NCBI GenBank assembly: GCA_037200445.1 | Contig: JBBCGH010000001.1 | Location: 5,019,162 to 5,083,161, forward strand | DNA from: Alphaproteobacteria bacterium | GTDB taxonomy: Bacteria > Pseudomonadota > Alphaproteobacteria > Rhizobiales > Xanthobacteraceae | Reading direction: 5' to 3' | Length of the DNA: 64,000 nt | Part shown: one piece after another, positions 22,278 to 37,396 of the stretch | Layout of the letters: the number at the start of each line of letters is the position of its first letter | Numbering within the stretch: position 1 is the first letter of the stretch | Program-made: the position numbers and the translations under genes | The notes under the pieces: generated by a model | The model's input: only the letters and a program-made list of their open reading frames with translations | What the model was told of the DNA's origin: nothing | Databases searched by the model: none

Positions 22278-22419
22278 GTCGCCGCGCGCGTCGCGAAGAG
22301 CGCCTCTCAACAATTCGCTAACGAGATTTCGCGAGCGCGCGAAAAAATTGCTTGCGTTCGGAGAACAATTTTCTTATTTCACACTTGCCCAATTTCGCAC
22401 GTGCCTGTGGCCGTGTGTC

Positions 22420-22779
22420 GATCGGTAGGCAGCGGGACAAGAGGCCCGCCAGTCGCCTGGGGAGCTGAGAAGCTCCTCAAGAGATCTGATCGGCAGCCGG
22501 AGGCGAAACCGGCGCACCCCGCGCTCAACGGGGGACGCGGCTTAAAGCAACGACGGAGCGGGCTTTTTTGGCAACACCGGCGCCAATGCCGGACGTGACT
22601 GAAAAGGCTTGTCCTTCTTTGCCAACAGTGCGGAACGGGTCCTTCCCTCATCCGGACTAAGGCAGCAATCGACGTGGTGTAAGCGCGTCCGCTTGTCCGA
22701 GCGGCTGCGCGAAACGCCACAGGAGGTTCACCTTAAGCCGCGGCGAGAGCCGCGCATACCGGATAGGGAATTCTTCGGA
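22420..22779 (+). promoter_or_regulatory. Structured leader upstream of ornithine decarboxylase (speF-type candidate)
   Basis: The 500 bases before the decarboxylase start hold no credible gene. From about 22420 the sequence is a chain of stable hairpins: GGAGCT/AGCTCC with a GAGA loop (22461-22476), GCCGG/CCGGC (22495-22512), CCCCG/CGGGG (22517-22533) and CCGGCGCC...GCCGG. Alphaproteobacterial ornithine decarboxylase genes are known to carry a long conserved leader (the speF RNA motif, Rfam family of that name), so this is probably that element. I could not align it to the model. Nothing was seen between 22278 and 22420. Confidence 0.45.
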
Positions 22780-29012: not shown

Positions 29013-29900
29013 CTAGCTCATCAGCGCTTCGGCAAGCTGCTTTATGTTGTGGCGCATCATGTCGATGTAGTTCGGCGCCGGGCCTTGTCCGTCGGTCAGC
29101 GCATCCGAATAGAGCGTGCCGCCGATGCGCGCGCCGCTCTCGGCGCCGATGCGCTTCAACAACCGGTCGTCGGTGATGTTCTCGAGGAATACGGCCGGGA
29201 TTTTCTGCTTCCTGATCTGGGTGATGATCCGGGCGACATCCCTGGCCGACACTTCCGACTCGGTCGACACGCCTTGCGGCGCGATGAACGACACCCCATA
29301 GGCCGCCGCGAAGTAGCCGAACGCATCATGCGTGGTGATGATGCGGCGCCGGTCGGCCGGGATCTTCTCGATCGCGGCCTTCACCTCGGCGTCGAGCGCG
29401 TCGAGCTTGCCGAGATAGGCGGTGGCGTTCGCCTCATAGGCGCTTTTTCCGGCCGGATCGGCCGCCACCAGCGCGTCGCGGATATTCGCCACGTAGATTT
29501 TCGCATTCGGCACCGACTGCCAGGCGTGCGGGTCGATCTCGGCGTGCCCATCCTCCTCCATCTTGCGCGGCTTTACGCCTTTGGTGGCGACGATCATCGG
29601 CGCCCTGGTGCCGGACGCCTTGATCAGACGCGCGATCCAGCCCTCGAAGCCCAGGCCGTTGGTGAAAACGACCTTGGCCTCCGCGAGCGCTTTCGCATCA
29701 CTGGGCGAGGGCTGATAGACGTGCGCGTCCGCGTTCGGGCCGACCAGCGCCTGCACGTCGACCCGGTCGCCACCCACGTTCTTCACGAAGTCGGCAAGGA
29801 TCGAGAACGTCGCGACGGCCTTGAGCTTCTCCTGCGCCGGCGCGGCAGTGATCGCGAGCAGCAGAGCTGCGGCGGCGAGAACGATGCGTCGTATCAGCAT
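29013..29900 (-). CDS. znuA: Zinc ABC transporter substrate-binding protein
   Basis: The 295-residue periplasmic protein has a signal peptide (MLIRRIVLAAAALLLAITAAPAQ) and the cluster A-I binding fold with conserved ligand histidines in NADAHVYQPSPSDA, EIDPHAWQSVPNA and ITTHDAFGYFAAAYG, and an acidic ligand near ENITDDRL. Compared with enterobacterial ZnuA the His-rich loop is short (EEDGHAE). Zinc rather than manganese is inferred from the Zur-like operator at the head of the operon. It starts seven bases after the permease gene ends; about 60 further in-frame codons upstream are shadow sequence. Confidence 0.92.
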   Translation of the reverse strand: MLIRRIVLAAAALLLAITAAPAQEKLKAVATFSILADFVKNVGGDRVDVQALVGPNADAHVYQPSPSDAKALAEAKVVFTNGLGFEGWIARLIKASGTRAPMIVATKGVKPRKMEEDGHAEIDPHAWQSVPNAKIYVANIRDALVAADPAGKSAYEANATAYLGKLDALDAEVKAAIEKIPADRRRIITTHDAFGYFAAAYGVSFIAPQGVSTESEVSARDVARIITQIRKQKIPAVFLENITDDRLLKRIGAESGARIGGTLYSDALTDGQGPAPNYIDMMRHNIKQLAEALMS

Positions 29901-29907
29901 GGGACCC

Positions 29908-30777
29908 TCACGCTTCGAGATGGCGGCCCGGGAAAGCCAGGCGCAGCACGCCGCCCACGCGGCCGAACAGCACCGAGACGGCGTAGAGCGCGCCCGCGAC
30001 CAGGATGATGGCGGGACCGGACGGAGCGCCGACATGGAAGGAGAGCAAGAGGCCCGCGTAGCCGGAGATCGCCCCGGCCGCGACGGCAATCAGGATCATG
30101 GCGGTGACATCGCGCGCCCAGAAGCGCGCCGTGACCGCAGGCAGCATCATGATGCCGACCGCAAGCAGCGTACCGAGCGCGTGGAAACCGCCGACCAGGT
30201 TCATCACCACCAGCGCCAGGAATGCGATGTGCGCCGTTGCCCCAGCGCGGCTCACCGAGCGCAAGAAGCCGGGGTCGACGCATTCGAGAACGAGCGGTCG
30301 ATAGATCACGGCGAGAATTGCCAGCGAGAGTGTCGTGATCCCGGCGATAAGCAGCAGCGTCTGGTCGTCCAGCGCGAGCACGCTGCCGAACAGGAAGTGC
30401 AACAAATCGATATTGGTGCCCTTGAGCGACACGATGGTGACGCCGACCGCGAGCGAGATGAGGAAGAACGCCGCGAGCGACGCATCCTCCTTCAGCTCGG
30501 TGACGCGTGCGACGACGCCGGCTCCGACCGCGATCACGAAGCCCGCGATCAGCCCGCCTGCCGTCATGGCGAACAGCGAGAGGCCCGACACCAGAAAGCC
30601 GATTGCGGCGCCGGGCAGGATCGCATGCGCCATCGCGTCGCCGACCAGGCTCATGCGCCGCAGCATCAGGAACACGCCGACTGGCCCCGCACCGAGCGCG
30701 AGCGCCAGCGTGCCGACCAGCGCGCGGCGCATGAAGGCGAATTCCACAAACGGAGAGATGAGCGTGTCGTAGATCAC
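29908..30777 (-). CDS. znuB: Zinc ABC transporter permease
   Basis: This 289-residue ABC-3 family permease has about eight hydrophobic helices and the family stretches RRMSLVGDAMAHAILPGAAIGFL and GTLLAVGIMMLPAVTARFWARD. The GTG at 30777 is chosen because it overlaps the ATPase stop by four bases (GTGA), the usual coupling in this operon type. It works with the ATPase and binding protein on either side to import zinc. Confidence 0.92.
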   Translation of the reverse strand: MIYDTLISPFVEFAFMRRALVGTLALALGAGPVGVFLMLRRMSLVGDAMAHAILPGAAIGFLVSGLSLFAMTAGGLIAGFVIAVGAGVVARVTELKEDASLAAFFLISLAVGVTIVSLKGTNIDLLHFLFGSVLALDDQTLLLIAGITTLSLAILAVIYRPLVLECVDPGFLRSVSRAGATAHIAFLALVVMNLVGGFHALGTLLAVGIMMLPAVTARFWARDVTAMILIAVAAGAISGYAGLLLSFHVGAPSGPAIILVAGALYAVSVLFGRVGGVLRLAFPGRHLEA

Positions 30778-31508
30778 GCCGCGCACGCCTCGGCGTTCTC
30801 GTCGAACGCCTCGCACATCCGCCGCGCCTTCAGGAGGTTCTCTGCCGTCAGCACCTCGCGCGTCGCGCCCCAGGCGACCGGCTCGCGCGCCAGCAGCAGC
30901 GCCTCGGGGAACATCGACTTGACCAGATCGAGATCGTGCAGCGCCGCAATGACGGTGCGCTTCTCGGCGTGCCAGCGCATCACAAGATCGCAGAGATCGG
31001 CGGCCGTCTTGGTATCGATCGCGTTGAACGGCTCGTCGAGCACGATCACGCGCCCGTCCTGCAGCAGCAACCGCGCAAACAGCGTGCGCTGCATCTGCCC
31101 GCCCGAGAGGGTGCCGATCGTTCGCTCTTCGAAGCCCGAGAGGCCGACGGCCGAAATCGCGTCGCGCACCTTGCCGCGCTCACGCTTGCCGATGCCGCCG
31201 AACAGGCCGGCTTCGCGCCACAGGCCCATCGCGACCATGTCGTAGACGCTGATCGGAAAGCTGCGGTCGATGTCGGCGACCTGCGGCAGGTACGCGATGT
31301 CGCGCGCACGCAGGCCGCACAGATCGATGCCGCCGGCGAGCGGCTTGATCATTCCGACGATGCCCTTGAACAGCGTCGACTTGCCGGCGCCGTTCGGGCC
31401 GACCACAGCCATCAGCGCGCCGGCGTTGACCGCGCCGTTCAGGTGATGAACGGCCGGATGCCGGTCGTAACCGAGCGTCACATTGTCGAAGGCGAGCGCA
31501 GCGCTCAT
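30774..31508 (-). CDS. znuC: Zinc ABC transporter ATP-binding protein
   Basis: This 244-residue ATPase has Walker A GPNGAGKSTLFKG, Q-loop YLPQVADIDRSFPISV, signature LSGGQMQRTLFARLLLQ, Walker B VIVLDEPFNAID and the switch His in ALHDLDLV. The ATG at 31508 overlaps the stop of the upstream 51-residue His-rich gene (ATGA). A His or Cys-rich tail as in E. coli ZnuC is reduced to a short ending, CEAFDENAEACAA. Confidence 0.93.
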   Translation of the reverse strand: MSAALAFDNVTLGYDRHPAVHHLNGAVNAGALMAVVGPNGAGKSTLFKGIVGMIKPLAGGIDLCGLRARDIAYLPQVADIDRSFPISVYDMVAMGLWREAGLFGGIGKRERGKVRDAISAVGLSGFEERTIGTLSGGQMQRTLFARLLLQDGRVIVLDEPFNAIDTKTAADLCDLVMRWHAEKRTVIAALHDLDLVKSMFPEALLLAREPVAWGATREVLTAENLLKARRMCEAFDENAEACAA

Positions 31509-31660
31509 GACGCCATGGCCCAGATGACCGCGCCCCACAGCACCGCAATTAGCACCGCGACTGCCGCGAGCCTCTCCAGCGCCGACAGGCGCAGGATCGA
31601 TGGCGACACGGTCGCGGCCGGATGCGCGTGGCCCGGATGATGGTGATGATGCGGCTCCAT
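31505..31660 (-). CDS. 51-residue His-rich single-span membrane peptide, first gene of the znu operon
   Basis: The peptide starts MEPHHHHHPGHAHPAATV and ends with one membrane helix (LERLAAVAVLIAVLWGAVIWAMA). Its stop overlaps the znuC start by four bases (ATGA), and its ATG lies three bases after a Zur-box-like palindrome, so it is clearly the first coding unit of the zinc operon. There is no Shine-Dalgarno sequence, so the message may be leaderless. It may gather zinc at the transporter or act as a small regulatory subunit. I know of no named family. Confidence 0.75.
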   Translation of the reverse strand: MEPHHHHHPGHAHPAATVSPSILRLSALERLAAVAVLIAVLWGAVIWAMAS

Positions 31661-33773: not shown

Positions 33774-35120
33774 TCACGGGAGAAGGAGCTTCACCACCAC
33801 ACCCAGCCCCGCCATCACGCCCACCACCTCGATCAGGCTGCGGTGCAGCCGGAATGCCAGCACTGCCGCGATGATCGCGAGCGCCGTCGCCTTGAGGTCG
33901 AGCGCCAGCGGATCGAAGGCGAACCAGCGCAGCGGTCCGAAGTGCCGTTCGGTCACCGAACCGAACAACACATGCAGCGCGAACCAGACCGAGAGATTGA
34001 GGATCACGCCGACCACCGCCGCCGTGATTGCCGCGAGCGCACCCGAGAGATGGCGGTTGGCGCGCAGCGGCTCGACGAACGGCGCGCCGGCAAAGATCCA
34101 CAGCATCGAGGGCGCAAACGTAACCCACGTGGTCATCGCGGCGCCGAGAACGCCGGCCGTCACGGCAGAGAAGGGCGCCGCCTCACGGAACGCCGCGAGA
34201 AAGCCGACGAACTGCGTCACCAGAATGAGCGGTCCCGGCGTCGTTTCGGCAAGGCCCAGCCCATCGACCATCTCGGGCGCGGTCATCCAGCCGTAGGTCT
34301 CGACCGCCTGCTGCGCCATGTAGGCGAGCAGTGCGTAGGCGCCGCCGAAGCTCACCACCGCGAGCTTGGAGAAGAACGTGCCGATACTGACCAGCACGTG
34401 GCCGGGTCCCAGCGCCAGCGACGCAAGCGCGACCGGCGCCCACCAGACGATCAGGCCAATCACCGAGGCCAGAAAGAATTGACGCCAGCGGGTTGGGTCC
34501 GCGGGCACGGTGCCGATTGTCTCGCTCTTCAGCCCCACCTGCTCCGGCGCGCGGCGCGCGACCAGATAGCCGATCAGCGCCGCAAGAACGACGATCACCG
34601 GAAACGGCGCATTGAGGAAAAAGATCGCCACGAACGCCGCGCCCGCGAGCCCGTAGAGCAGCGGCGTTTTCAGCGCGCGCTTCCCGATGCGCAGCAGCGC
34701 CTCGATCACGATCACCAGCACGGCCGCCTTGATGCCGAACAGCGCGCCGTCGATCCATGCGACACCACGGCCCAGCGCGTACAAGAGGCTCAAGCCGAGC
34801 ATCACCAGCGCGCCGGGCAGCACGAACAGGATGCCGGCCGCCAGGCCGCCGCGAACGCCGTGCAGCAGCCAGCCGATGTAGGTCGCGAGCTTCGTCGCCT
34901 CGGGCCCGGGCAGCAGCATGCAAAAGCTCAACGCGTGAACGAAACGCGCGTCGTCGATCCATTTCTTCTCGTCAACCAGCATGCGATGCATCATGGCGAT
35001 CTGCCCGGCCGGGCCTCCGAAGTTGATGCACCCGATCTTCAGCCACAGCCGGAACGCTTCGCCGAAACTCGGCGAAGCCACCGCGGCATCCGCTGACAAC
35101 GTCTCGCTTTGAACCGCCAT
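33774..35120 (-). CDS. chrA: Chromate efflux transporter
   Basis: This 448-residue CHR-family transporter exports chromate using the membrane potential. Two homologous halves are seen: FRLWLKIGCINFGGPAGQIAMMHRMLV with LSFCMLLPGPEATKLATYIGWLLHG in the first, and FFSKLAVVSFGGAYALLAYMAQQAV with LAETTPGPLILVTQFVGFLAA in the second. About twelve membrane helices. Its start follows the rhodanese-ChrB stop by a single base (TGAGATG), so the two are one operon under the leader RNA at 35949-36020. Confidence 0.95.
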   Translation of the reverse strand: MAVQSETLSADAAVASPSFGEAFRLWLKIGCINFGGPAGQIAMMHRMLVDEKKWIDDARFVHALSFCMLLPGPEATKLATYIGWLLHGVRGGLAAGILFVLPGALVMLGLSLLYALGRGVAWIDGALFGIKAAVLVIVIEALLRIGKRALKTPLLYGLAGAAFVAIFFLNAPFPVIVVLAALIGYLVARRAPEQVGLKSETIGTVPADPTRWRQFFLASVIGLIVWWAPVALASLALGPGHVLVSIGTFFSKLAVVSFGGAYALLAYMAQQAVETYGWMTAPEMVDGLGLAETTPGPLILVTQFVGFLAAFREAAPFSAVTAGVLGAAMTTWVTFAPSMLWIFAGAPFVEPLRANRHLSGALAAITAAVVGVILNLSVWFALHVLFGSVTERHFGPLRWFAFDPLALDLKATALAIIAAVLAFRLHRSLIEVVGVMAGLGVVVKLLLP

Positions 35121-35121
35121 C

Positions 35122-35947
35122 TCACGCCGCCTTTGCGGGCCAGTTGTGCCGCTCCTCGGCCGCGTGGCGCGACCAGGCGAGCAGCGCATCGTAGACCGCA
35201 AAGCCTTGCGCGATCATGCCGTAATCATCATCGCCAGCAAGCGCCGAGAGGCCGAGCGAGACCGCATGCAGCCCGGCCGCTTCCGGCGCGAGATCGTACC
35301 GGGCGGTATCCGCGCCGCGCACGATCAGCGCAACGCGGGCAAGATGCGGGTCACCTTCCAGGCCGAAGAGCTTCAGCATCGTGTCGAATGAGCAGCGCTC
35401 GCCTTCGTGGCTGATCTCGACGCCCTCGATGTCGAACGGGATCGCACCGATATCGTCCGCGATGTGCTGCACCTCGCCTGGATCGACATAATAGATGCGC
35501 GCCTGTGGATCGATGAAGCGGCGGATCAGCCACGGACAGGCGACGCGGTCGATCTTCGGCCGGCGCCGCGTCACCCACAGGCTGGGCAATTTCGGCGCGA
35601 AGCGCTCCAGCGTGGCTTTGGTGACCAGCGGCAGGCCGGCTTCGCTCCACGCCTTGCGCCCACCCTCCAGCACCTGTGCGGACACGCCGCGCGCACGCAG
35701 CTCCGCGGTAATCATCTGGCTCAGATTATGCCCGAAGCGGCAGGCCAGCACGATTCGGCCGGCCGGCCGGCAAGCCCGGTACCCACTCCATGTAGGTTTC
35801 CGGCTTACGCCACTGCGCGGTCGGAATGACTCCCGGACCCGCTTCGTAGATTTCGCGGCGGCAGACGTCGAGAATTGTCGGCGCATCGGCGGTGCCGATC
35901 TTTGACCAGAGTTCTTGCGGTGAAACAAAAAAGCTCGCGGAAGACAT
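35122..35947 (-). pseudogene. Rhodanese-ChrB fusion, chromate resistance regulator/sensor, frameshifted
   Basis: The N-terminal frame reads MSSASFFVSPQELWSKIG ... ILDVCRREIYEAGPGVIPTA ... EWVPGLPAGRP, a rhodanese start. Near 35760 the sense moves by one base to IVLACRFGHNLSQMITAEL (rhodanese active-site loop with Cys), then the ChrB domain LWVTRRRPKIDRVACPWLIR ... YYVDPGEVQHIADDIGAIPF to the stop at 35122. CCGAATCG in place of CCGATCG would restore one protein of about 274 residues. The break could be real or an assembly error. It leads the chrA operon. Confidence 0.8.
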
Positions 35948-35948
35948 A

Positions 35949-36020
35949 GGTCTCCTCCTGTTCGAGGAGACGGCGCTTGGGCCTCGCGAGCCTGACGGGG
36001 CGACCGTCGAAAAGCCCCGT
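35949..36020 (-). promoter_or_regulatory. Riboswitch-like leader RNA, copy 1 (rhodanese-ChrB/ChrA operon)
   Basis: On the minus strand: ACGGGGC ... GCCCCGT closes an outer helix, a GGCTCGCGAGGCC hairpin follows, and GTCTCCTC/GAGGAGAC forms a perfect eight-pair stem that contains the Shine-Dalgarno GGAGGAG just before the ATG. GACGG inside the first domain can instead pair with CCGTC at the base of that stem, freeing the ribosome site. It is nearly identical to copy 2 apart from loop bases. It may correspond to the published chrB candidate RNA class. Confidence 0.75.
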
Positions 36021-36060
36021 ACGCGTAGAATACTAGATAGACGCTACAAGAAGCAATCAA
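36021..36060 (-). promoter_or_regulatory. Likely promoter of the chromate operon
   Basis: TTGATT (36055-36060) and TCTAGT are 17 bases apart on the minus strand and end 12 bases before the leader RNA. The -35 hexamer overlaps the stop codon of the upstream gene. Copy 2 has an analogous TTGAAT-17-TAAATC. Confidence 0.45.
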
Positions 36061-36440
36061 TCGCGACAGGGGCAGGCTGCGATGTTACGCAGCCAGTAGG
36101 CCTCCACGGCCTCGTCGGCCCAGAAGGCCACCGACACATCCACTGACTCCGGCTTCCAGACAAAGCGCTCGGTGAAATCGACTTCGGGCGCGTTCTCCTT
36201 CATCCGCGAGAACAGGATTTCGAAGCGGCCCGAATTCGTCGCACAGCGCGATGCATCGACCGCCAGCGTCGCCGACCAGATACGCTCCATCGTCTCGGGC
36301 TGGACCTGCGAAAACCGGACCTGCTTGAAGGCGAGGACCGGCTTGCAGAGTGGCGCCGCGATGGCAGGCGTTAGCCCGACGCCGGCACCAAGCAGAGCGA
36401 CCATCAGATTGCGGGAAAGAAAAAAGCTCGTCGAAGCCAT
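36057..36440 (-). CDS. Secreted protein of unknown function under chromate-type leader RNA
   Basis: The 127-residue protein has a signal peptide (MASTSFFLSRNLMVALLGAGVGLTPAIAA) and a mature part with Cys near the start (PLCKPVL), one in the middle (SRCATNSG) and a CPC pair at the end, so disulfides or a metal site are possible. KQVRFSQVQPETMERIWSAT and VDVSVAFWADEAVEAYWL are its most distinctive parts. The first residues MASTSFF nearly match MSSASFF of the rhodanese-ChrB protein, because the leader duplication includes the first codons. GGAGGAG precedes the ATG. The function is unknown; co-regulation with chromate export is implied. Confidence 0.8.
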   Translation of the reverse strand: MASTSFFLSRNLMVALLGAGVGLTPAIAAPLCKPVLAFKQVRFSQVQPETMERIWSATLAVDASRCATNSGRFEILFSRMKENAPEVDFTERFVWKPESVDVSVAFWADEAVEAYWLRNIAACPCRD

Positions 36441-36441
36441 G

Positions 36442-36513
36442 AGGTCTCCTCCGCGTGAGGAGACGGCGCTTGGGCCTCGCGAGCCTGACGGGGCGACCGT
36501 CGATGAGCCCCGT
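36442..36513 (-). promoter_or_regulatory. Riboswitch-like leader RNA, copy 2 (secreted protein gene)
   Basis: It has the same helices as copy 1: outer ACGGGGC/GCCCCGT, the GGCTCGCGAGGCC hairpin, and GTCTCCTC/GAGGAGAC hiding GGAGGAG, with ACGCG as loop in place of GAACAG. Stems are conserved while loops differ, as expected of a folded RNA. TTGAAT-17-TAAATC upstream is a likely promoter, with transcription starting near the first helix. Confidence 0.75.
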
Positions 36514-36640
36514 GGCACGCGATTTAGATGAATTCCGCGCACGATTCAAGGCGGCCTGCTACACCCCTGCCCTGACAATTCGCCGCTCGCAACCGCCGCC
36601 GCGCCTGGGCTAGGACATGGCGCATTCGAGGAAGGCCGCC

Positions 36641-37396
36641 ATGCCCAACACCATCGACCTCGCCAACCGCTTCGCCGTGGTCACCGGCGGCGCGCAGGGG
36701 ATCGGCCGCGCCATCACGGAGCGGTTCCTCGACTCGGGCGCTGCGGTCGCGATCTGGGACCGCGACTTGGGCCTGGCCGAGAAGGTGGCCCGGGAACTCG
36801 CCAATCGCGGCCAGACCCTGGCGGTCGCCTGCGATGTGACCAAGCTCACGGACGTCGAGCGCGCGCGTGACGACACCGTGAAGGCCTTCGGCCGCCTCGA
36901 CATCCTGGTGAACAACGCCGGCATCGCGGGCAAGAACGCCACCACATGGGACTACCCGGTCGACGAATGGGCGGCGGTGATGCGCATCAATCTCGACGGC
37001 GTGTTCCACTGCTGCCGCGCCGTGGTGCCGCAGATGATCGCGCAGAAGTACGGCCGCATCGTCAACATCGCGTCGATCGCCGGCAAGGAAGGCAATCCGA
37101 ACGCCTCGGCCTATTCGGTATCGAAGGCCGGCGTGATCGCGCTGACCAAATCGCTCGGCAAGGAGCTCGCCGGCCACGATATCGCAGTGAACGCCATCAC
37201 GCCGGCCGCCGCCAAGACTGCGATCTTCGACCAGATGACCAAGGAGCATATCGACTTCATGCTCTCCAAGATCCCGCGCGCGCGCTTCGTGAAGGTCGAA
37301 GAAGTAGCCGCACTCGCTGCCTGGTGCGCGTCGGCGGATAACTCGTTCACCACGGGCGCGGTGTTCGACATTTCCGGCGGGCGGGCGACGTATTGA
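36641..37396 (+). CDS. SDR family oxidoreductase
   Basis: This 251-residue short-chain dehydrogenase has FAVVTGGAQGIGRAI at the N terminus, DILVNNAGIAG, the catalytic Ser in NIASIAG and YSVSKAG (Tyr-x3-Lys). It resembles 3-oxoacyl-ACP reductase/sugar-acid dehydrogenase members. GAGGAAGG just upstream favours 36641 over an ATG 24 bases earlier. The transporter gene that follows overlaps it by four bases. Confidence 0.92.
   Translation: MPNTIDLANRFAVVTGGAQGIGRAITERFLDSGAAVAIWDRDLGLAEKVARELANRGQTLAVACDVTKLTDVERARDDTVKAFGRLDILVNNAGIAGKNATTWDYPVDEWAAVMRINLDGVFHCCRAVVPQMIAQKYGRIVNIASIAGKEGNPNASAYSVSKAGVIALTKSLGKELAGHDIAVNAITPAAAKTAIFDQMTKEHIDFMLSKIPRARFVKVEEVAALAAWCASADNSFTTGAVFDISGGRATY

Follow-up and report, generated by a model that had tools for sequence, protein, structure and literature searches.

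Two leader RNAs in a chromate module

Two leaders of 72 nt each lie on the minus strand of the window (the whole 64,000-nucleotide stretch of DNA analysed), both reaching from CGGGGC to the last base ahead of an ATG (Table 1). Copy 1 heads the gene of a small protein and copy 2 that of a rhodanese-ChrB_C protein, behind which a ChrA-type chromate transporter is encoded; no leader of the same sub-type (D, see below) was seen ahead of chrA, and a search of the window's own genome for D leaders returned only the window pair. At 35754-35755, about 64 codons in, the copy 2 gene has one base more than its counterpart in a genome of the same genus (G012), so that either the gene has decayed or the sequence is in error; because of this frameshift, selection on the copy 2 unit may be relaxed. 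Beyond chrA, the minus strand at 29013-31538 holds a ZnuA-type zinc uptake gene (Pfam) and frames that appear ABC-transporter-like by eye. A sigma-70 promoter scan of the leader region in the window returned no promoter, and boxes that resemble promoters to the eye were set aside.

Table 1. Positions of the leader elements and genes, in window numbering
Feature	Position	Strand	Basis or remark
Copy 1 leader	36512..36441	minus	ATG 36440
Copy 1 P1 hairpin ACGGGGC/GCCCCGT	36488..36513; arms 36513-36507 and 36494-36488	minus	in MFE fold
Copy 1 5' pseudoknot strand GACGG	36501-36497	minus	within P1 loop
Copy 1 P2 hairpin GGCTCGCGAGGCC	36473..36485	minus	sequence inspection
Copy 1 conserved CAAGC	36472-36468	minus	directly 3' of P2
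Copy 1 3' pseudoknot strand CCGTC	36462..36466	minus	partner 36501-36497; covariation
Copy 1 SD-sequestering stem	36444..36464; GTCTCCTC 36464-36457, GAGGAGAC 36451-36444	minus	fold and covariation
Copy 1 terminator-like 3' strand GGCTTCGACGAGCTT	36438-36424 (feature 36420..36438)	minus	MFE fold
Copy 1 six-U run	36425-36420	minus	first two U paired
Copy 1 gene	36057..36440	minus	127-aa protein, signal-like N terminus by eye
Copy 2 leader	36019..35948	minus	ATG 35947
Copy 2 P1 hairpin ACGGGGC/GCCCCGT	35995..36020; arms 36020-36014 and 36001-35995	minus	fold
Copy 2 5' pseudoknot strand GACGG	36008-36004	minus	
Copy 2 P2 hairpin GGCTCGCGAGGCC	35980..35992	minus	CAAGC 35979-35975 next
Copy 2 3' pseudoknot strand CCGTC	35969..35973	minus	covariation
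Copy 2 SD-sequestering stem	35950..35971; GTCTCCTC 35971-35964, GAGGAGAC 35957-35950	minus	fold and covariation
Copy 2 terminator-like 3' strand CGCGAGCTT	35939-35931, codons 3-6 (feature 35927..35939)	minus	MFE fold
Copy 2 six-U run	35932-35927	minus	first two U paired
Copy 2 gene (chrB)	35122..35947	minus	rhodanese and ChrB_C protein, frame broken
ChrA-type chromate transporter	33774..35120	minus	directly behind chrB

The original prediction had described two nearly identical minus-strand leaders of this length with like stems and differing loops, and this description holds: both were located and compared, both fold better than shuffled sequences, and all the elements that it named (ACGGGGC/GCCCCGT, GGCTCGCGAGGCC, GTCTCCTC/GAGGAGAC, GACGG and CCGTC) are present in each. 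The named stems are identical between the copies. The differences fall at two positions in the loop of the first hairpin, in the SD stem's terminal loop and at the bases adjoining the ATG. CCGTC occurs twice per leader, the second time 3' of CAAGC, and in copy 1 the final three bases of this pseudoknot strand are the initial three of the SD-sequestering stem. Folding of 100 nt of leader plus coding start gave −47.6 kcal/mol for copy 1 (z −4.04; 1 of 200 dinucleotide shuffles equally good) and −45.2 kcal/mol for copy 2 (z −3.57; none of 200).

Three features were absent from the original prediction: the frameshift, a likeness of the two genes over roughly their first eight codons (ATGGCTTCGACGAGCTTTTTTCTTTC / ATGTCTTCCGCGAGCTTTTTTGTTTC; the proteins are otherwise dissimilar), and a predicted hairpin between P2 and the first codons that runs into a U-run. 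In the MFE folds of both copies, P2 is opened and paired with the coding start, the hairpin ending inside UUUUUU. In copy 1 the 3' strand starts at the third base of the ATG and extends to codon 6, with one bulged A, and pairs with AGGCTCGCGAGGCC (36486-36473); that of copy 2 pairs with AGGCTCGCG (35993-35985). Both copies thus show the sequence features of an intrinsic terminator, a GC-rich hairpin and then a U-run, with the SD stem held in a long loop. A simple terminator scan of 35700-36700 flagged neither of these long-looped hairpins and returned one site, the copy 2 SD stem, against 0.9 expected by chance.

Relation to the chrB classes

The chrB motifs were reportedly named in a paper of 2017. 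The original prediction raised membership of this class as a possibility and proposed a covariance search against Rfam to check it. In a lax scan, copies 1 and 2 scored 31.6 (E 0.0018) and 26.5 bits, respectively, against RF03078 (chrB-a; cut-off 43.9), and 30.5 and 30.9 bits (E 0.0002 for both) against RF03086 (chrB-b; cut-off 36.5), so that chrB-a and chrB-b were the best matches, with scores below the cut-offs. No Rfam family exceeded its cut-off in either leader. The sole match in the window to do so lies elsewhere, at 22387-22567, and is the alphaproteobacterial small RNA ar45 (55.2 bits against a cut-off of 40, with long unaligned middle stretches). Hits to malK-III and sR51 (22.1 and 17.2 bits against cut-offs of 50 and 38, respectively) were dismissed as chance matches.

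Besides the window pair, the same genome holds three further chrB-b RNAs over the cut-off (65, 62.5 and 49.2 bits), and a chrB-a search of it gave none above cut-off. A very divergent chrB-like leader was also noticed by eye upstream of a TauE gene of this genome (locus L009, 3770-3851): it has CCGGGC/GCCCGG, a CAAC loop facing GUUG past CAAGC, and then ATGGATTTC of the TauE gene. It is not among the chrB-b or chrB-a matches in the genome, and RNAfold keeps its P1 at 77 nt and loses it at longer lengths.

Of 149 genomes surveyed in the window's bacterial family, a chrB-b match at E ≤ 0.05 is present in 59 and one above the cut-off in 38, with at most seven per genome. Simple patterns served to sort 101 leaders (99 matches of this survey plus the window pair) into sub-types to which we gave the letters A (39), B (28), C (11), D (13, the window type) and E (10, chrB-a). 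Left out of the sorted set were the rows with E above 0.007, which are the weakest, together with four near-duplicates of G106; some of the lowest rows kept (G096, G144, G146) look like chance matches. A covariance model built from the 13 D cores (the window copies and 11 relatives) found 85 matches of at least 55.6 bits in 61 of 391 family genomes, the next match scoring 40.9 bits. In a sample of 385 genomes of the class, only the window's own exceeded 55 bits, eight others reaching 26-40 bits. The range of chrB-b and chrB-a is wider, with matches at E ≤ 1e-4 in 24 of 289 genomes of the class and 31 of 299 of the phylum; the D, class and phylum searches used stricter filters, which lose weak matches. 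Sub-type D thus appears concentrated in the family of the window.

When 20 D loci were scanned with the chrB-b model, the D site itself passed the cut-off in three (L107, L108, L114), and one additional D site did so at 37.5 bits (G133:C16). The window copies also share the structural hallmarks of chrB-b, with P1, a P2 ending in CAAG, and a pseudoknot between the P1 loop and the sequence past CAAGC, and they stand ahead of a chrB-chrA pair, as expected of leaders of ChrB/ChrA-type genes. On these sequence grounds we group chrB-a, chrB-b and D as a chrB superfamily that shares one core. Membership of the window leaders is supported in this wide sense, by the lax matches, the common core and the pseudoknot; in the strict sense of the two Rfam cut-offs it fails, and the leaders are best described as divergent members.

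Covariation of the pseudoknot and the SD helix

The common core has fixed spacing: five pseudoknot bases, two bases and CCC, and further on CAAG, one base and the five partner bases. Only 4 of 182 rows could not be parsed in this way, and 163 unique leaders were obtained, including a few that are out of register. In these, 4.71 of the five pseudoknot positions are paired on average, as compared to 3.95 (sd 0.045) with shuffled partners, the highest of 1000 shuffles giving 4.09. Position 5 alone is occupied by U-A in 88 leaders, C-G in 29, A-U in 21 and G-C in 3. These observations support the pseudoknot across the sub-types. It is not new, since PMC7657543 already lists chrB RNA among the cases in which covariation reveals a new pseudoknot helix.

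In 80 D leaders, all 480 cells between the P1 loop and the strand past CAAGC are Watson-Crick or G-U, and so are 557 of 560 cells between that strand and the ribosome-site strand; a loop A always faces a partner U (39 of 39). The loop strand was chosen by pattern and the SD helix strand by best match, so these counts lean towards pairing. That one strand is tracked by two partners is as an either-or switch predicts, and the comparison supports the SD helix and the pseudoknot of D as two exclusive states competing for it. The alternative between a GACGG/CCGTC pseudoknot and the sequestering stem, which the original prediction had made to depend on covariation among homologues, is therefore backed by covariation that is indeed present.

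Predicted pairing of P2 with the first codons

To obtain the D set, 83 pattern hits were reduced by a register duplicate, one that was too short and one without a start, leaving 80; the synonymous-codon test covered the 56 unique leaders with a long ATG frame. At codons 2-8, P2 is matched more closely by the actual codons than by random synonymous replacements (mean z −0.89; 42 of 56 at p < 0.5 and 13 at p < 0.05), and a repeat gave −0.90 with 11 of 56 at p < 0.05. At codons 9-15 the sign is reversed (+1.13), and the next stretches gave −0.15, −0.34 and −0.01. The pairing between each leader and its own codons exceeds all 2000 swaps, and with the window copies omitted, mean z is negative in 14 of 15 genera, being positive in genus g9. 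One genus contributes 27 of the 56 leaders and D leaders are kin by descent, which makes the pooled p-values too small; 14 of the 56 show no bias (p ≥ 0.5). Serine is encoded by AGC in 29 of 35 cases at codons 4-5, as compared to none of 32 at codons 2-3, 1 of 70 at codons 6-9 and 211 of 526 from codon 10 onward. Synonymous codon choice at codons 2-8 thus favours P2 pairing in D.

The MFE folds point the same way: at least six coding bases pair with P2 in 46 of 58 long-frame D leaders, as compared to 17 of 58 controls in which a later stretch of the same gene replaced the coding start. At least five U occur in the next 8 nt in 13 of these 46 leaders, as opposed to 0.15% of ORF-body windows. 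The codon test was null in sub-types A (z +0.23, n 27) and E (z +0.13, n 10) and weak in B (z −0.59, n 20) and C (z −0.35, n 8), and we therefore assign the signal to D. Pairing of P2 with the start codons in all sub-types had been considered and was rejected, given the null tests in A and E. In A and B the Asp codon does track a P2 base (GAC in 21 of 23 leaders with CCGTCC, GAT in 25 of 26 with CCATCC, 16 rows lacking these motifs being set aside), a link that is tied to the gene family.

Tandem leaders and five-codon frames

A D leader begins 118-207 nt upstream of 11 of the 28 B-type leaders. Conversely, 22 D leaders open a frame of at most 50 codons; two of these continue into genes of the ChrB or ChrA type, and the remaining 20 occupy a tandem, TauE-side position. 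A B-like core follows 36-130 nt downstream in 18 of the 20, and the longest frame is TauE-like in 14, with L126 and L028 also preceding TauE genes. The mini-ORF has exactly five codons in 17 of the 20; of all 20 frames, three start with TTG and one with GTG. In nine leaders it reads M-x-x-G-P, where the codons GGG CCC or GGG CCT complement P2 and are followed by the stop and usually a U-run; in one leader the pair is compensatory, AGGCCC of P2 facing GGGCCU in the codons. Outside this M-x-x-G-P group no terminator can be seen, and in genus g34 the mini-ORF still has five codons, without a U-run. The five-codon frames may be relics of a gene start. Behind the second D leader of locus L045 (at 2354, minus orientation), the reading frame of a ChrB-type gene start is interrupted by a stop as its sixth codon (MAALS*), which coincides with the position of the mini-ORF stop.

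A simpler account would be that the role of D leaders is limited to opening and closing the ribosome site, that pairing of P2 with the codons lengthens the closed stem, and that the U-run is incidental to a Ser-Phe-Phe sequence. It agrees with the null codon tests in A and E, which have the same core and presumably function, and with the fewer than five U in the tail of 33 of the 46 P2-pairing leaders. However, Phe is TTT in 26 of 49 cases at codons 5-8, far over the ORF background of 66 of 413 from codon 16 onward, and the succession of GGGCCC, stop and U-run behind the M-x-x-G-P frames is terminator-like without an amino-acid reason. We consider this plain translational switch unlikely.

Genes behind the leaders

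First genes were counted by Pfam, omitting 24 leaders without a long downstream frame, rows below 30 bits outside D and E, and eight of 64 D frames judged mis-picked or tandem. The 30 proteins behind A leaders include DUF6815 (8), ChrB_C (7), rhodanese (7), MFS (3), ChrA (2) and GH59_C (2), with TauE and some others once each. TauE accounts for 24 of 25 behind B, and MatE for four and DUF6815 for one of nine behind C. Behind D (56 proteins) rhodanese (49) and ChrB_C (47) prevail, with ChrA and MFS at three each, and behind E (10) the counts are ChrB_C 8, rhodanese 7 and ChrA 2. The other three chrB-b RNAs of the window's genome precede an MFS transporter gene, a DUF6815 gene and a gene for a secreted, lectin-like protein (Pfam GH59_C, under cut-off) with superoxide dismutase and DUF1259 genes behind it.

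The frequency of transporters among these genes suggests that the ligand of the regulon is a toxic solute, for which chromate, sulfur oxyanions and organic compounds are all candidates; chromate is only one guess, since TauE/SafE, MFS, MATE and DUF6815 genes occur besides chromate transporters. Autoregulation, in which the rhodanese-ChrB_C protein binds the leaders and no small molecule is involved, would account for the prevalence of ChrB_C where D and E leaders are followed by a long first gene. However, all but one of the counted B leaders precede TauE, and of the 30 near-complete genomes that have chrB-b leaders above the threshold, four lack a ChrB_C match (G008, G019, G031, G100; 5 of 38 overall). 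The existence of genomes with such leaders and no ChrB_C match disfavours the protein as effector, and we regard this account as improbable.

For the product of the copy 1 gene, neither Pfam nor NCBIfam gave a match at E ≤ 0.01. A peptide-pattern search of genome contigs gave no relatives, and a whole-genome search found them in six other genomes of 100 (seven including the window's own). In G056 and G042 the relative, 54% identical over 102 residues, lies immediately downstream of a D leader and has a TauE-like gene behind it, as judged by translation likeness. Since these relatives also stand under a D leader, copy 1 is likely a real regulon member. That copy 1 is a mere recent duplicate of copy 2, placed by chance ahead of an unrelated gene, would fit copies that are near-identical into the first codons of proteins that then diverge, and seems very doubtful against the arrangement in G056 and G042, which are near-identical at this locus and may represent one event.

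Proposed mechanism

We think it probable, with moderate confidence, that the window carries two copies of a riboswitch-like RNA of the chrB class, sub-type D, which controls translation and adopts three states. In state 1, P1, P2 and the pseudoknot from the loop to CCGUC would combine into an H-type fold whose last strand is the one required for hiding the SD, leaving the ribosome site free and the gene read. In state 2, without the pseudoknot and presumably without ligand, GUCUCCUC would close on GAGGAGAC and hide the ribosome site. In state 3, as predicted for D, P2 of an untranslated message would open and pair with the first codons; in part of the D leaders, including both window copies, the hairpin would reach a U-run and RNA polymerase would stop inside the gene, unless an initiating ribosome prevents it. 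The pairings assigned to states 1 and 2 are borne out by comparison of leader sequences, as is the favouring of the state 3 pairing by synonymous-codon bias. A ligand, probably a toxic solute removed by the regulon, would drive the change of state and turn the genes on, and termination would take place at the hairpin. The length of the hairpin loop counts against the three-state reading. The description of D as a variant of the chrB candidate class with a three-state mechanism is plausible, and its pairings are supported.

As a more tentative extension, to which we lend somewhat less than even weight, the terminator may be operated by the ribosome: the switch would gate only the ribosome's start, the terminator would lie in the first five to eight codons of the gene, and initiation itself would be the antiterminator. 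On the TauE side, the gene would be replaced by a five-codon mini-ORF (for example, M-x-x-G-P-stop) ahead of a second chrB-class switch, with GGGCCC doubling as codons 4-5 and as the terminator stem. The D leader and the second switch, two sub-types in series, would then form a two-stage gate for TauE genes.

The third state, if true, would link translational with transcriptional control within the first codons. The chrB RNAs resemble riboswitches, and in the open-licence literature we found no report of a chrB ligand or of in-gene terminators under chrB RNAs; among the papers found there, PMC7657543 names chrB RNA in the relevant sense, and a term search of PMC3817168 brought up neither a leader nor an untranslated region. 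The core common to chrB-a, chrB-b and D, together with the predicted in-gene terminator of D, defines a regulon for a ligand search. One genome can hold five chrB-class RNAs, ahead of ChrB/ChrA, MFS, DUF6815 and secreted-protein genes, and relatives add TauE and MATE genes to the targets.

Comparison with known systems

The window copies share with chrB-b (RF03086) P1, a P2 ending in CAAGC, the pseudoknot from the loop to the 3' side, and ChrB, ChrA or TauE genes downstream. Their own features are a short GGC/GCC P2, the overlap of CCGTC with GTCTCCTC, and the hairpin between P2 and the codons with its U-run. Like them, chrB-a (RF03078) spans the entire leader up to the AUG, including the SD-side stem, whereas its pseudoknot is GCGAU/AUCGC and its 10 leaders show no signal of pairing between P2 and codons. 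In ribosome-mediated attenuation, the formation of a terminator depends on translation. The bmrCD system of Bacillus subtilis is reported to be a case of this kind (PMC4191407), and the D leaders would resemble it in that translation decides whether the terminator forms. In the D leaders, as a point of difference, a chrB-class RNA would cover the ribosome site, and the hairpin would lie in the first codons of the gene or in a five-codon ORF.
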